From: Sphaerisporangium perillae
GTDB lineage: Bacteria > Actinomycetota > Actinomycetes > Streptosporangiales > Streptosporangiaceae
Assembly (NCBI RefSeq): GCF_023276435.1
Contig: NZ_JALLPO010000040.1
Coordinates: forward strand, 1 to 64,000
Direction: 5' to 3'
DNA length: 64,000 bases
Position numbers and translations under genes: made by a program. The first letter of the stretch is position 1; every line of letters starts with the position of its first letter. Positions 9,201 through 47,686 of the stretch are shown here, piece by piece. The notes beneath the pieces are model-generated. The model saw only the letters and a program-made list of their open reading frames with translations, did not search any database and had not been told where the DNA came from.

Positions 9201-10088
9201 ATGGAACCCTATCGCCGAGACACCACGACCGAGGCGGACCGTGATCCGGAGACCGGCCACGCCCAGGACCCGGAGACCGGCCACCCCGAGAACTCCTCCG
9301 ACCTCGAGAACTCCCCCGACGACCCCGGCACCGTGTACGACCCCGCCGGGCATGCGCGGGACGAGAGCAAAAGTCTGAACAACCACGGCTCGGACGAGCG
9401 TGGACTCGATGACCACGGCTCGGACGAGCGTGGTTTGGGCGATGTCGATGTGGAGCGTCCTCAGGGGGAGAGCACAGGCATGGTCAGCAATCCCGACCCG
9501 GCTCATGCCTCCGGCACGCTCGGCGACGCTGAGACGCGCGGGGAGCAGGCCGAGCAGCGGGATCTGATCGTGTACCCGGAGGAGGCGGACTACCCCACCC
9601 CGGCCGAGGACTCCAGCCTGGCCGCCGGCGTTCCGGGCGCGGAGCTGGATCCCGTGCTCGTGGCGCAGGCCACCGGCCCCGGTTCGGGCACCGGAGCCGA
9701 CACCCGCACCGGGACCGGGACCGGCCTGGACATCGGCATCGGCTCGGGCGTTGATACCGGCGCCGGTACCGACACCGGCAAGGATCACAACGACGACGAG
9801 GGCGCCGACTTCGAGCGGCGGTGGCGCAAGGTGCAAGCGAGCTTCGTCGACGACCCTCGAGAGGCCGTCGAGCGGGCCGACCGGCTCGCCGACGAGGCGG
9901 TGGCGGCGATCACCTCTCGCAAGCAGGGTCTCGTCGACCGCTGGAAGAACGGCGACCAGAACGGCGACCAGAACGACACCGAGCGGCTCCGGCTGGCGCT
10001 GCGCGACTACCGCTCCTTGCTCCAGGAGCTCGTGGGGCTTTCCTACTCCAGCGCCGGGCACGACATGCCCCGGCTCGAAACGAAGTGA
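9201..10088 (+). CDS. Low-complexity protein sharing the C-terminal domain of its upstream neighbour
   Basis: The protein is 295 aa, with AGGGAGG placed 11 bases before the ATG and only 6 bp from the previous stop. The N-terminal 200 residues are low complexity: DPETGH repeats, NNHGSDERGLDDHGSDERGL and a Gly/Thr/Asp-rich run (about residues 154-192). The last 90 residues repeat the helical domain of the upstream protein (RRWRKVQASFVDDPREAVER; final YRSLLQELVG matches YRALFEELLE). No membrane segment is present, so a soluble partner of the anchored protein is possible. Function unknown. Confidence 0.78.
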   Translation: MEPYRRDTTTEADRDPETGHAQDPETGHPENSSDLENSPDDPGTVYDPAGHARDESKSLNNHGSDERGLDDHGSDERGLGDVDVERPQGESTGMVSNPDPAHASGTLGDAETRGEQAEQRDLIVYPEEADYPTPAEDSSLAAGVPGAELDPVLVAQATGPGSGTGADTRTGTGTGLDIGIGSGVDTGAGTDTGKDHNDDEGADFERRWRKVQASFVDDPREAVERADRLADEAVAAITSRKQGLVDRWKNGDQNGDQNDTERLRLALRDYRSLLQELVGLSYSSAGHDMPRLETK

Positions 10089-43784: not shown

Positions 43785-44777
43785 ATGAAGAAGCTCATCA
43801 ACAGCGCGGACTCCGTCGTGACCGACGCGCTCGCCGGAATGGCCGAGGCCCACCCCGGCCTCCGGGTCGATCGGGACAACAAGGTCGTGTACCGCCGGCA
43901 GGGGCCCACGCCGGGCAAGGTGGGGCTGGTGTCCGGCGGCGGCTCCGGCCACGAGCCGCTGCACGCGGGCTTCGTCGGGTACGGCATGCTCGACGCGGCC
44001 TGCCCGGGAGAGATCTTCACCTCCCCGGTGCCGGACCAGGTCATGACGGCCACCCAGGGCGTCGACGGCGGCGCCGGGGTGCTACACATCGTCAAGAACT
44101 ACACCGGCGACGTGATGAACTTCGAGATGGCCGCCGAGCTGTGCGCCGAGGAGGGCATCGAGGTGACCTCGGTGCTGGTCAACGACGACGTGGCGGTCAA
44201 GGACTCCCTCTACACGGCCGGGCGGCGCGGCACCGGCGCGACCGTCTTCGTGGAGAAGATCGCCGGAGCGCTCGCCGAGACCGGGGCGTCCCTGGCCGAG
44301 GTGGCCAGGATCGGCGGGCAGGTCAACACGCTCAGCAGGTCCTTCGGCGTGGCACTCTCCCCGTGCACCGTGCCGGCGGCGGGCAAGCCGACCTTCGACC
44401 TCAGCGACAACGAGATCGAGTTGGGCATCGGCATCCACGGCGAGCCGGGCCGGACCCGCGCGCCGGCCGCACCCGCACGGGAGCTGGCGCGCATCGCCAT
44501 GGACGCCGTCCACGCCGACCTGCCGCTCTCCGGCGACACGCTGGTGATGGTGAACGGCATGGGCGGCACGCCGCTCATCGAGCTGTACGTGGTGTTCGCC
44601 GAGGTCGCCGCGTACCTGCGGGAGAAGGGGGCGTCACCCACGCGCAGCCTGGTGGGAAACTACATCACGAGCCTGGACATGCAGGGCTTCTCGGTGACCG
44701 TGTGCCGGCTGACCGACGAGCTGACCCGGCTCTGGGACGCCCCCGTGCAGACCCCTGCCCTGCGCTGGGGCCGGTGA
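43785..44777 (+). CDS. dhaK: Dihydroxyacetone kinase substrate-binding subunit DhaK
   Basis: The protein is 330 aa, normal for the bacterial PTS-type subunit. It binds dihydroxyacetone covalently through a histidine, here His218 in [27 protein letters not shown] contributes the substrate site, and [20 protein letters not shown] is typical. It works with DhaL (ADP-binding) and DhaM (phosphoryl donor), encoded directly downstream, to make dihydroxyacetone phosphate from PEP-derived phosphate. It begins the operon. Confidence 0.95.
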
Positions 44778-44855
44778 CGGCGGCCGCCCCGCCCCTCCGA
44801 GCAAGGCACACCCCCGACAGGACGACCCGCAGCCGCCTTCAGGAGCCACAGTCTC

Positions 44856-45608
44856 ATGGACGCCAAGTTCTTCACCGCCTGGATCGAGGAGACGGCGCGG
44901 GTCATCGCCGCCAATCGCGACCACCTGACCCGGCTCGACGCCGCGATCGGCGACGCCGACCACGGGACCAACCTGGACCGGGGCTTCGCCGCCGTCCGCG
45001 AGGCCCTGGCCGCCAGGCCGGCGGGCACCCCCGGAGACGTCCTCACCCTCACCGGCACGACGCTCATCCGCAAGGTCGGCGGCGCGTCCGGCCCCCTGTA
45101 CGGCACCGCCTTCCGCCAGATGGGCACCGCCCTCAACGCCGCCGCCCAGCCCGCCCCGCCACCCGCGGACGCCCCGCCGCCCGGGAACGCCGGGGCCGTC
45201 CCACCGGCCGGGGACGCCGGGACCACCACTGCGCCGGGCGCCGAGGGCGTCACCGCACCCGCCGGCGGTGGCGAGGTGACGCTCTCCGAACTGGCCGCCG
45301 CGTTCGAGGCGGCGCTCGCCGGGGTGCGCAGGCTCGGCGGGGCCGCCGAGGGCGACAAGACCATGGTGGACGCCCTCGCCCCCGCGACGCGCGCGCTGGC
45401 GGTCGCCGCGAACGGCGGGATGAAGCCCGAAGAGGCACTGGACGCCGCCCTCGCCGCCGCCGAGGAGGGCGCGCAAGCGACGATCCCGCTCCAGGCCCGC
45501 AAGGGACGCGCCAGCTACCTGGGCGAGCGGAGCATCGGGCACAAGGACCCGGGCGCCGCCTCCACCGCGCTCATCTTCGCCGCCCTGCGCGCGGTGGCCG
45601 CCGGATGA
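44856..45608 (+). CDS. dhaL: Dihydroxyacetone kinase ADP-binding subunit DhaL
   Basis: The protein is 250 aa. The Mg-ADP site motif DAAIGDADHGTNLDRGF is near residues 28-44, followed by TLIRKVGGASGPLYGTAF; near the end are GDKTMVDALAPA and ARKGRASYLGERSIGHKDPG. It is about 40 residues longer than usual because of a Pro/Ala/Gly/Thr-rich insertion at about 97-140 (AAQPAPPPADAPPPGNAGA...). It accepts phosphate from DhaM on bound ADP and hands it to DhaK-bound substrate. Its stop overlaps the ATG of the first of two mini-cistrons before dhaM. Confidence 0.95.
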   Translation: MDAKFFTAWIEETARVIAANRDHLTRLDAAIGDADHGTNLDRGFAAVREALAARPAGTPGDVLTLTGTTLIRKVGGASGPLYGTAFRQMGTALNAAAQPAPPPADAPPPGNAGAVPPAGDAGTTTAPGAEGVTAPAGGGEVTLSELAAAFEAALAGVRRLGGAAEGDKTMVDALAPATRALAVAANGGMKPEEALDAALAAAEEGAQATIPLQARKGRASYLGERSIGHKDPGAASTALIFAALRAVAAG

Positions 45609-45687
45609 CCATCCCTGAGACGGCGGTGGCCGGATGACCGTCCTGGACAGAGCGGTGACCGGATGACCATCCCCGAAAAGCAGGTCG
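45601..45687 (+). repeat. Three 29-bp direct repeats creating two mini-cistrons before dhaM
   Basis: Units begin at 45601, 45630 and 45659, each starting CCGGATGACC(A/G)TCC. Each carries an ATG, at 45605, 45634 and 45663. Because 29 is not a multiple of 3, the first two ATGs give ten-codon frames (MTIPETAVAG and MTVLDRAVTG) that end in TGA overlapping the next ATG. The third ATG is that of dhaM. The chain is dhaL stop - mini 1 - mini 2 - dhaM, all joined by ATGA overlaps. Confidence 0.85.
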
Positions 45688-46055
45688 GCATCGTCCTGGT
45701 CTCCCACAGCGAAGCCCTGGCGCGGGAGGCCGCCGCCATGGCCGTGCAGATCGCTGGCCCGCACGTCCACGTCGCGCCCGCCGGCGGCACCGACGACGGC
45801 GGCTGCGGCACCAGCGCCGACAAGGTGGCCGCCGCCATCGAGCAGGTCGACCAGGGGATCGGGGTGGTGCTCATCCCCGACCTGGGCAGCTCGGTGCTCA
45901 CCGCCCGCCTGTTCGAGCAGCCGGATTCGATCGTCATCGCCGACGTCCCCTTCGTCGAGGGCGCCATCTCCGCCGCCGTCCTCGCCGGCACCGGGGCCAC
46001 GCTCGCGACCGTCCTCATCGCCGCCCAGGAAGCCAGGGAGTACCGGAAACTCTGA
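45663..46055 (+). CDS. dhaM: PTS-dependent dihydroxyacetone kinase phosphotransferase subunit DhaM
   Basis: The protein is 130 aa, a single EIIA-mannose-like domain. The phosphorylated histidine is His15 in IVLVSHSEALA; GGTDDGGCGTSADKVAAAIE and VLIPDLGSSVLTA are family motifs. Enterobacterial DhaM also carries HPr- and EI-like domains; none is present here, so phosphate should come from the general PTS proteins. The true start is the third of three repeated ATGs. Two ten-codon frames upstream may pass ribosomes to it from dhaL. Confidence 0.92.
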   Translation: MTIPEKQVGIVLVSHSEALAREAAAMAVQIAGPHVHVAPAGGTDDGGCGTSADKVAAAIEQVDQGIGVVLIPDLGSSVLTARLFEQPDSIVIADVPFVEGAISAAVLAGTGATLATVLIAAQEAREYRKL

Positions 46056-46076: not shown

Positions 46077-47297
46077 TCACGGTGTGTCCCACAGGTCGGT
46101 GCTGTGTGCGTCGACCAGAGCGCGGACGCGGGTCAGGAGCTCGGCGGCGGGCACGGCGTCCAGGCGGCGCCCGTCGCGCAGGCGCAAGGCGACCTGGTCG
46201 CCGGCGGCCTCCTTGGCGCCGATCACCGCCTGGTAGGGCACGAGCCGGGCGGCCCGCACGCGGGCGCCCAGGGTGCCGTGCTCCGGCCCGGCGATCTCGG
46301 CGCGCAGCCCTTGGGCGGCGCATCGTCCTACGAGGGCGGCGGCCTGCGGCAGTTCGTCGTCGGAGACCGGCAGGACCACCACCTGGGTGGGGGCGAGCCA
46401 GGCGGGGAAGGCGCCGCCGTGCAGTTCGATGAGGTGGGCGACGGCCCGCTCCACGCTGCCGATGATGCTGCGGTGGACCATGACCGGCCGATGCTTGGCG
46501 CCGTCGGGGCCGATGTAGTGCAGGCCGAACCGCTCCGGCTGGTGGAAGTCGACTTGGACGGTGGACAAGGTGGCCTCACGGCCGGCACTGTCGGCGATCT
46601 GGACGTCGATCTTGGGGCCGTAGAACGCCGCCTCGCCTTCGGCGGCCTCGTACTCGACGCCGGACGCGTCGAGGACCTCGGTCAGCAGGGCGGCGGCCCG
46701 CCGCCACATCTCAGGGCCGGCGACGTACTTCCCGCCCGGCCCCGGCAGGGAGAGCCGGTAGCGGGCCGAGCGGATGCCGAGAGCGCCATAGGCCCGCCGG
46801 ATCAGCTCAAGGGCCGCCCGCGCCTCGCCTGCGGCCTGGTCCAAGGTGCAGAAGATGTGCGCGTCGTTCAGCTGGATCGCCCGTACCCGGGTCAGCCCGC
46901 CGAGCACTCCGGACAGCTCGGAGCGGTACATGCCTCCGAGCTCGGCCATCCGCAGGGGCAGCTCCCGGTAGCTGTGGGAGCGGGAGCGGTAGATCAGGGC
47001 ATGGTGCGGGCACAGGCTCGGCCGCAGGACGACCTGCTCTCCCCCGAGATCCATCGGGGGGAACATGTCGTCGCTGTAGTGGGACCAGTGCCCGGAGATC
47101 TCGTACAGTTCCCGCTTGCCCAGCACGGGCGAGTACACGTGCCGGTAGCCGGCCCGGCGCTCGGCGTCGCGGATGTACTCCTCCAGGGCGTGCCGCACCA
47201 CCGCGCCGTCGGGCAGCCAGTACGGCAGCCCCGCGCCGATCAGCGGGTCGGTGTCGAACAGCTCGAGCTCGCGGCCGAGCTTGCGGTGATCGTGCAT
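46077..47297 (-). CDS. thrS: Threonyl-tRNA synthetase paralogue lacking the N-terminal TGS and editing domains
   Basis: The protein is 406 aa; full bacterial ThrRS is about 640. The ATG has GAGGAG upstream. It starts directly with the catalytic core: DTDPLIGAGLPYWLPDGAVV, RPSLCPHHALIYRSRSHSYR (motif 2 and zinc ligands), RIQLNDAHIFCT-type motif (VRAIQLNDAHIFC), FYGPKIDVQI and HRSIIGSVERAVAHLIE (motif 3). The anticodon-binding domain follows (QVVVLPVSDDE...). The core looks intact, so it should charge tRNA-Thr without proofreading. A leader peptide with three Thr codons precedes it. Such second copies can give resistance to ThrRS inhibitors. Confidence 0.9.
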   Translation of the reverse strand: MHDHRKLGRELELFDTDPLIGAGLPYWLPDGAVVRHALEEYIRDAERRAGYRHVYSPVLGKRELYEISGHWSHYSDDMFPPMDLGGEQVVLRPSLCPHHALIYRSRSHSYRELPLRMAELGGMYRSELSGVLGGLTRVRAIQLNDAHIFCTLDQAAGEARAALELIRRAYGALGIRSARYRLSLPGPGGKYVAGPEMWRRAAALLTEVLDASGVEYEAAEGEAAFYGPKIDVQIADSAGREATLSTVQVDFHQPERFGLHYIGPDGAKHRPVMVHRSIIGSVERAVAHLIELHGGAFPAWLAPTQVVVLPVSDDELPQAAALVGRCAAQGLRAEIAGPEHGTLGARVRAARLVPYQAVIGAKEAAGDQVALRLRDGRRLDAVPAAELLTRVRALVDAHSTDLWDTP

Positions 47298-47318
47298 CGT
47301 GGTCTCCTCGCGGACTAC

Positions 47319-47434
47319 GGGGCGAGTGACCACACGGCGAAGCCCCGGGGCACTCGCCCCGGGGCTTCGGACTGAGAACATCTGTCAGCGCGCCGGGACA
47401 CTCTCCGGCGTCGTCGTCAAACCAGCGCGCTTCA
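47319..47434 (-). promoter_or_regulatory. Putative transcription attenuator of the thrS-like gene
   Basis: Four competing pairings are visible in the leader RNA. Stem 1:2 pairs AGCGCGCTGG (47431-47422) with CCGGCGCGCT (47396-47387), 10 bp with one G-U, and the three Thr codons lie in its loop. Stem 2:3 pairs TGTCCCGG (47400-47393) with CCGGGGCG (47362-47355). Stem 3:4 is the 14-bp hairpin at 47369-47338. A further pairing joins GGGGCGAGTG (47360-47351) with CACTCGCCCC (47328-47319). This is the arrangement of a ribosome-controlled attenuator: stalling at Thr codons would favour 2:3 over the terminator. Confidence 0.65.
47338..47369 (-). terminator. 14-bp hairpin in the leader of the thrS-like gene
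   Basis: CGAAGCCCCGGGGC and GCCCCGGGGCTTCG form a perfect stem with a 4-base loop (GAGT in the RNA). It lies between the leader-peptide stop and the thrS ribosome-binding site. No U-run follows, as is common for actinobacterial terminators. Confidence 0.75.
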
Positions 47435-47435
47435 T
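47385..47435 (-). CDS. Leader peptide with three consecutive threonine codons
   Basis: The frame encodes MKRAGLTTTPESVPAR, 16 residues, with three successive ACG (Thr) codons at positions 7-9. No ribosome site precedes the ATG. A -10-like TACCGT ends 7 bases before it, so the mRNA may start at the ATG (leaderless), as for some actinobacterial leader peptides. It lies 88 bp upstream of a threonyl-tRNA synthetase paralogue, the amino acid matching the gene. The peptide itself needs no function; translation speed would be the signal. Confidence 0.7.
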   Translation of the reverse strand: MKRAGLTTTPESVPAR

Positions 47436-47686
47436 GTGGGCAACGGTAACAGAGGCGTCGATCTCCACACCTCCGGTTTTCGAGCCCGCCGACCACAGGC
47501 CCTCGGCGGACCGGCCGACTGCGGGGGCGGGGAACGGCGTGCGTGGTGGGGAACGGCGTACGAGGCGGAGAGGGCGTGCGGGGCGGGGAGCTCGGGCGGC
47601 CGCGGCTGAAAGCCGGGAATCGAGCTGGAACACGTCGTATCTCAGCACGTAGCGGGCGATGTGCCGTTGCAGTACGGTTCGGGGCT

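Follow-up and report, generated by a model that had tools for sequence, protein, structure and literature searches.

Bacillus subtilis has a second threonyl-tRNA synthetase (ThrRS), thrZ, which is controlled by a T-box. In translational attenuation of the ermC type, a ribosome stalled on the leader frees a hidden ribosome site. Vecchione and Sello are said to have described, in 2010, ribosome-mediated attenuation of the auxiliary TrpRS of Streptomyces. Attenuation of the ermC type is also mentioned in an excerpt of PMC2965389, and the auxiliary TrpRS of Streptomyces is indolmycin-resistant according to an excerpt of PMC9437257. For threonine operons, the relevant section of PMC1262725 reported in 2005 that no conserved RNA structure lies upstream. 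The closest described element is thrL of S. lividans TK24, for which part of PMC8079986 gives the peptide MKRVRPFLETTPGFVPAR upstream of thrS SLIV_19410, a leaderless start and one hairpin without a U-rich sequence. We searched the open-licence literature, with subscription papers mostly outside the search, and found no other paper on the thr leader, the wider family or the ribosome-site switch.

We analyzed a locus within a 64-kb window, by which we mean the whole stretch of DNA under study (Table 1). A ThrRS paralogue is preceded there by a 16-codon frame on the same strand. An earlier note on this DNA had claimed that such a leader is undescribed in actinobacteria. The claim of novelty fails because thrL, in print since 2021, is the same element before the same paralogue. 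A pattern derived from the S. lividans thrL core matched in 2 out of 392 genomes (G486 and G589), and in both a peptide identical to MKRVRPFLETTPGFVPAR stands before a 77%-identical paralogue. The element is real, widespread and functional-looking, and its leader is known in one species.

Table 1 Features of the leader and the ThrRS paralogue, in the order of transcription
Feature	Position	Strand	Evidence or remark
-10-like element TACCGT	47443..47448	-	7 nt upstream of leader start
Leader peptide frame MKRAGLTTTPESVPAR, stop TGA	47385..47435	-	conserved in homologues
Strand 1 (partner of strand 2)	47422..47431	-	89.1% of cells paired, 37 rows
Three Thr codons ACG ACG ACG	47409..47417	-	ACG three times in 137/141 distinct leaders
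Strand 2 (pairs with 1, or with 3 via GTCCCGG)	47387..47399	-	invariant alignment columns; nascent 2:3 test
Strand 3 of hairpin 3:4; last bases and loop = B	47356..47369	-	folding, conservation
Loop GAGT, core of B:D, covaries with D	47352..47355	-	covariation, duplex energies, nascent folding
Strand 4 of hairpin 3:4, no U-tract after it	47338..47351	-	folding, sequence
D: partner of ribosome-site region E or of B	47319..47333	-	covariation
E: 3' arm of sequestor, holds GAGGAG (47309-47304)	47299..47311	-	sequence, folding, covariation
Helix 1:2	47431-47422 with 47396-47387	-	
Helix 2:3	47399-47393 with 47362-47356	-	7 bp including one G-U
Hairpin 3:4	47369-47356 with 47351-47338	-	14 bp, loop GAGT
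Pairing B:D, 3:4 loop region with D	47360-47351 with 47328-47319	-	10 bp
Second helix D:E	47333-47299	-	hides ribosome site GAGGAG
ThrRS paralogue, catalytic and anticodon domains only	46077..47297	-	406 aa; NCBIfam, Pfam

The threonine leader and its distribution

We sampled 158 homologous loci, comprising a first set of 111, in which the source gene and some other genes occur twice, and 47 further loci. A frame scan saw the leader in 109 out of the 111 loci of the first set. A contig end interrupts the leader at L053, where the core is still visible, and L028 has ACG AGG ACG in place of the three Thr codons. We also applied a rule that was blind to threonine: it asked for TANNNT, a start codon, 8-35 codons and a hairpin and set no condition on Thr codons. 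This rule found a leader frame in 146 of the 158 loci, and 145 of these frames encode TTT, as the earlier note had claimed for this locus; the remaining one (L028) encodes TRT. The 12 loci without a frame under this rule are L053, L149, L163 and nine others with a hairpin, start or length outside the rule. The short leader frame before the ThrRS paralogue is thereby confirmed as real rather than a chance occurrence.

Codon spelling was counted in 141 distinct leaders, a set whose search motif itself required Thr-like codons. It leaves out 14 duplicates of leaders that were kept, two loci at contig ends (L053 and L149) and one locus that is no homologue (L163). The spelling is ACG ACG ACG in 137 leaders, ACT ACG ACG in two, and ACC ACG ACG and ACG AGG ACG in one each, so that the first codon varies only to other Thr codons (ACT twice, ACC once). 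A run of cognate codons in a short frame upstream of the gene, as in ribosome-mediated leader-peptide attenuators, is observed. Either pairing with strand 2 or the sensing of a single tRNA-Thr isoacceptor could explain the near-constant use of ACG. The peptide ends in VPAR in 130 of the 141 distinct leaders. In four loci (L031, L096, L151 and L165) the tail is either frameshifted or truncated, yet strand 2 keeps most of its letters, which argues that selection acts on the RNA and not on the peptide tail. Two leaders with two Thr codons each (L166 and L167) were added later and lie outside all conservation and folding counts. Homologous leaders that lose the Thr codons or stems would have spoken against the earlier note; both are kept, with the exceptions of L028 and two S. 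lividans-type leaders that have two of the three Thr codons.

TANNNT lies 5-9 nt upstream of the start in all 141 distinct leaders, the start having been picked with a preference for TANNNT where possible. As a background, 2 out of 1547 other ATG or GTG codons in the same stretches satisfy this rule. A scan with the strict sigma-70 consensus did not find a full promoter at the leader. The leader transcript is probably leaderless and begins at or near the leader ATG. The earlier note would have been contradicted by a transcript start downstream of 47385; the transcript of the S. lividans homologue is leaderless according to the part of PMC8079986 that concerns it.

We built a covariance model of the leader (R1) and ran it on 296 genomes of the class. 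It matched in 59 genomes, and in 44 of them with at least 48 bits. These 44 strong matches lie directly upstream of the paralogue in 43 genomes and at a contig end in one (G301). The paralogue itself was detected in 48 of the 296 genomes (E ≤ 1e-125). Five genomes have the paralogue without a strong leader match: two are interrupted by contig ends (G223 and G355), two have weak matches adjoining the paralogue (36.6 bits in G266 and 33.4 bits in G278), and in G270 the leader (L147) was missed by R1 and is visible by eye. The other weak matches of R1, at <37 bits, are probably chance hairpins. Within one genus, probably Streptomyces, the paralogue occurs in 97 out of 199 genomes. A second paralogue match occurs in two genomes: in G447 it covers only part of the protein (residues 74-366), and in G371 it has diverged to 56% identity.

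The ThrRS paralogue and its surroundings

The paralogue scores 445 bits against NCBIfam TIGR00418, for which the cut-off is 384 bits, and aligns with profile positions 171-563 of 565. Since the alignment begins at position 171, the N-terminal part is missing. The TGS and editing domains found at the N-terminus of the housekeeping enzyme were not found in the paralogue, in which Pfam recognized the class II core and anticodon domains only. The same genome (9.3 Mb) encodes one full-length thrS elsewhere in addition to the paralogue. At the positions that we mapped to the zinc ligands, C, H and H are present in 156 out of 156 loci. With its score above the curated cut-off and its zinc ligands kept, the paralogue is predicted to be a threonyl-tRNA synthetase. 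Several paralogues had seemed to contain an internal stop or readthrough, and this was rejected, as the stop is the end of the gene (alignment positions 402-403) in the four cases inspected.

We compared the drug-binding positions over the same 156 loci, some of which represent the same gene twice. Gln occupies the position of human ThrRS L567 (E. coli L489) in 154 loci, where the housekeeping ThrRS of the genome has Leu, and Ser occupies that of human M411 in 151, where the housekeeping enzyme has Met. According to excerpts of PMC4389257, mutations that confer borrelidin resistance occur at L489, and the ThrRS of the borrelidin producer itself is changed at the positions of human H391, F539, Q566 and L567. 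The paralogue usually differs at two of these four positions, with His for Q566 (139/156) and Gln for L567. H391 is unchanged in 148 of the 156 paralogues and F539 in all of them. The housekeeping ThrRS of the source genome itself differs at H391 and Q566. An excerpt of PMC11252418 names Gly463 of E. coli ThrRS; the Gly that we mapped to this residue is unchanged in 156 out of 156 loci. These residues suggest that the paralogue may be resistant to a ThrRS-directed drug.

The paralogue scores 389 bits against the ThrRS of Staphylococcus aureus and, in a different search, 326 bits against its own housekeeping ThrRS. The higher score against S. aureus hints that it may have originated outside the actinobacteria. 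At four loci (L025, L088, L156 and L166) a charged, low-complexity N-terminal extension, often rich in His and Asp, lies between the start codon and the catalytic domain; an example is MHDRDHDHDHDHD from L166. Such an extension could possibly bind metal. An excerpt of PMC10771440 mentions SCO3778, a threonyl-tRNA synthetase, as having a sigma-E site in cells under ethanol stress, and WblC switches on synthetase genes when antibiotics target translation (excerpt of PMC7157823).

We looked for conserved neighbor genes within 3 kb at 80 loci, using frames of at least 100 codons with G+C-rich third positions, and found none beyond the ThrRS cluster itself (79 loci). The next two clusters (30 and 25 loci) are shadow frames over the ThrRS gene or the leader, and the others comprise at most five loci. 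In the window, three frames that resemble dihydroxyacetone kinase subunits by eye (43785-46055, plus strand) are oriented convergently with the paralogue, leaving a gap of 21 bases. ARAGORN reported a tRNA-Thr (CGT) at 9623-9705 on the plus strand, which had no Rfam tRNA match even at E ≤ 10 and is therefore probably a false positive.

RNA structure, covariation and folding of the leader

The region 47290-47440 folds better than every one of 200 dinucleotide shuffles (z -4.0). In the first 60 leaders, the advantage over shuffles is only modest for the stretch upstream of the start codon (mean z -1.0, with values below -1.5 in 20 out of 60). The three alternative pairings 1:2, 2:3 and 3:4 of the earlier note, including the 14-bp hairpin, were all found. 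The range that it considered (47319..47435) ends before the ribosome-site arm (47311-47299), which we added here. Its 10-bp pairing with the 3:4 loop is present and conserved (B:D); we revise its place, assigning it to a second switch at the ribosome site.

The 1:2 stem, the 3:4 hairpin, the D:E helix and the B:D pairing are all conserved. RNAalifold, applied to 37 leaders, chose 1:2, and B:D rather than 3:4. In the same 37 rows, 91.4% of the cells of the set 1:2, 3:4 and D:E are paired, and 13 cells are changed on both sides compared with 5.0 in shuffles (0 out of 500 reached this number); foremost among these doubly changed cells are those of nine sequences in which U-A replaces C-G in D:E. 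For B:D, 92.9% of the cells are paired and nine are doubly changed compared with 3.6 in shuffles (0 out of 500), whereas the number of pairs changed on both sides, three, is not unusual in this alignment, as 237 out of 500 shuffles reached it. For 2:3, 98.1% of the cells are paired, and there is no covariation in the 37 rows because its letters hardly vary.

Changes in the loop are accompanied by changes in D (AAGT/CACTT, GGGT/CACCC, GCAC/GTGCG and AGAC/CGTCC), and in some leaders (L036 and L037, for example) there is a C-A mismatch between the two. We computed duplex energies for 135 leaders, leaving out six parses with a weak hairpin, duplicated stretches and rows in which the motif is missing, and compared each leader's own partners with partners exchanged between leaders; these permutations ignore kinship. 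For B:D, own partners reach -17.2 and exchanged partners -15.9 kcal/mol (sd 0.13; 0 out of 5000 permutations). When each unusual loop type is represented by a single sequence (n = 20), the values for B:D are -16.4 and -13.6 kcal/mol (sd 0.5; 0 out of 20,000 permutations). For D:E, own and exchanged partners in the 135 leaders reach -16.8 and -15.0 kcal/mol (sd 0.18; 0 out of 5000 permutations). B resembles the ribosome-site region of its own leader only slightly more than that of other leaders (4.91 compared with 4.85 of 7 letters, 0.9% of permutations), so the idea of a decoy is based on pairing and not on likeness. L147 and L148, whose protein is 54% identical, are the most divergent pair; they retain by eye the 1:2 stem (CACACC/GGTGTG and CACGCC/GGCGTG) and the sequestor (GGGCTCC/GGAGCCC), and strand 3 has a GAGCCC able to pair with D. 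D:E is thus a conserved helix on the ribosome-site region, as in translational attenuators.

We estimated which pairings a ribosome on the leader would favor. Helix 2:3 and the barrier that follows it were assessed in 135 of the 141 distinct leaders, and forced 2:3 and loop:D pairing in 134, the rest being without exact strand letters or a recognizable ribosome site. When a ribosome mask is placed at the first Thr codon and the RNA extends to the loop, 2:3 is predicted in 126 out of 135 leaders, compared with 8 out of 135 for ribosome-free RNA. Moving from 2:3 to 3:4 would require crossing a barrier estimated at 11.9 kcal/mol (median, n = 135). In nascent RNA that ends before the ribosome site, loop:D is predicted in 104 out of 134 leaders with 2:3 in place, compared with 11 out of 134 with 3:4 formed; the controls gave 3 out of 134 for free RNA and 60 out of 536 for random loops. 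This capture of D in nascent RNA gives the covariation of loop and D a role.

Full-length RNA at equilibrium behaves differently. With the stall mask (106 leaders), the ribosome site became more open by 0.2 in two leaders and less open in 10, and 3:4 was retained in the five leaders displayed. With 2:3 forced (134 leaders), loop:D exceeded 0.5 in 33 leaders compared with 0, and the ribosome site was more open in one and less open in three. These folds, in which the site is hidden with the stall mask or with 2:3 forced, speak against a thermodynamic switch. Because the site stays hidden at full-length equilibrium, either the switch must operate kinetically or transcription terminates at the U-less hairpin as the output. 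The 1:2, 2:3 and 3:4 pairings would form a mutually exclusive set governed by the position of the ribosome, a choice predicted by folding and absent at full-length equilibrium.

Proposed mechanism, alternatives and comparison with known systems

We propose, at a probability of roughly 0.55, that the element is a ribosome-sensing attenuator of a spare ThrRS that most likely acts at the level of translation. The analysis shows the anatomy, its conservation, the covariation of D:E and B:D and the folding preferences in each masked state. We infer stalling at the Thr codons, the direction and timing of the response, and translation rather than termination as its output. Hairpin 3:4 has no U-tract and the 10-bp pairing is part of a second switch at the ribosome site, so that the output is likelier to be translation than plain termination. 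When Thr-tRNA is ample, the ribosome would read through the leader and strand 2 would be covered by the ribosome or paired with strand 1. Hairpin 3:4 would form, its loop would be locked, and D would lie on the ribosome site, the off state. When Thr-tRNA is short because cells are starved of threonine or ThrRS is inhibited, the ribosome would halt at ACG ACG ACG and cover strand 1, and 2:3 would pair. With 2:3 formed, strand 4 could not immediately close the hairpin. The freed loop GAGUG would take D (CACUC) while the ribosome site is being transcribed, and translation of thrS would begin, the on state. Uncharged tRNA-Thr would raise expression of the paralogue, an enzyme that would serve under stress and might tolerate an antibiotic directed at ThrRS.

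The hairpin could instead act in plain transcription attenuation, with 3:4 as a terminator without a U-tract, 2:3 as the antiterminator and the ribosome-site helix secondary. Hairpin 3:4 is strong and conserved, 2:3 precedes strand 4 in the stalled state with a barrier to 3:4 of ~12 kcal/mol, and part of PMC8079986 lists thrL among attenuators identified by RNA-seq, although in the same part the S. lividans authors, too, call termination unclear. A terminator scan of 47200-47600 found no candidate with a T-run, and 3:4 does not have the U-tract of a classical attenuator. Termination alone would also leave the covariation of the loop with D, and of D with the ribosome site, unexplained, and we consider this reading possible but rather doubtful. 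The two sets of elements are conserved next to each other, as would be expected if 3:4 terminated some transcripts while D:E and B:D tuned translation of the remainder. The U-less hairpin again speaks against a termination level, and such a two-level control seems improbable.

The near-invariance of the strand-2 letters exceeds the need of a single stem and would fit an element that is not a sensor of charged tRNA at all, conserved for example for autoregulation by ThrRS binding or for nascent-peptide arrest. Against this, the peptide tail shifts frame or stops early in the four loci named above, Thr is kept through synonymous letters in three leaders, and the leader frame and the -10-like element recur; we give this reading very little credence. 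Translational control by a ribosome stalled at the Thr codons is the reading that we prefer. A wider proposal, which we put forward only tentatively, is an actinobacteria-wide two-stage relay. The loop of a U-less hairpin would compete for D, and after a stall and formation of 2:3 the loop would grab D cotranscriptionally and leave the site open; combined with an altered borrelidin pocket, the relay might form an inducible defence against ThrRS-directed antibiotics.

The analysis turns a one-line table entry for S. lividans into a defined regulatory module, and the loop-D pairing offers compensatory mutations that can be tested. If the reading of the drug site is true, the element would be a natural inducible sensor for ThrRS inhibitors, with relevance for reporter use and for the self-protection of antibiotic producers.

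Like thrZ of B. subtilis, the paralogue would be a spare ThrRS induced by threonine limitation; thrZ has a T-box, whereas the 64-kb window has no T-box match. A T-box riboswitch was considered and rejected, as a tRNA is the only match in the window at the Rfam gathering score and none of four weak matches (E ≤ 5) in 47200-47560 is a T-box. As in the ermC type, a stalled leader ribosome would expose a hidden site; the ermC type senses a general slowdown of translation, whereas the thr leader would sense a shortage of Thr-tRNA. The auxiliary TrpRS is likewise an inducible second synthetase, reportedly under leader-peptide control. There the amino acid is tryptophan and resistance has been demonstrated, whereas for the ThrRS paralogue it is threonine and resistance is suggested by residues only.

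The Streptomyces attenuators of the trp operon, trpS and leuS, as described in sections of PMC1262725, share a leader peptide with cognate codons, and two of them precede synthetase genes. In the same sections, the trp and leuS terminators are followed by poly-U; the thr leader has no poly-U and has a ribosome-site sequestor. The LEU element of actinobacterial leuA, also from these sections, resembles the thr leader in having a leader peptide and RNA pairing at the ribosome site. Its run of Leu codons pairs with the ribosome site, whereas the partner in the thr leader is D. A LEU element was rejected for this locus, ACGACGACG having no complementarity to GAGGAG. With S. lividans thrL, as presented in part of PMC8079986, the element shares a leaderless leader ending in TTP..VPAR and one hairpin without a U-rich stretch. 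That account of thrL gives the peptide, the start and one hairpin, whereas the present one includes 1:2 and 2:3, the ribosome-site helix, the loop-D pairing and a cross-species comparison. The leader itself was already in print; what is new is the breadth of the element, the loop-D switch as part of a two-stage RNA at the ribosome site, and the altered signature at the drug site.
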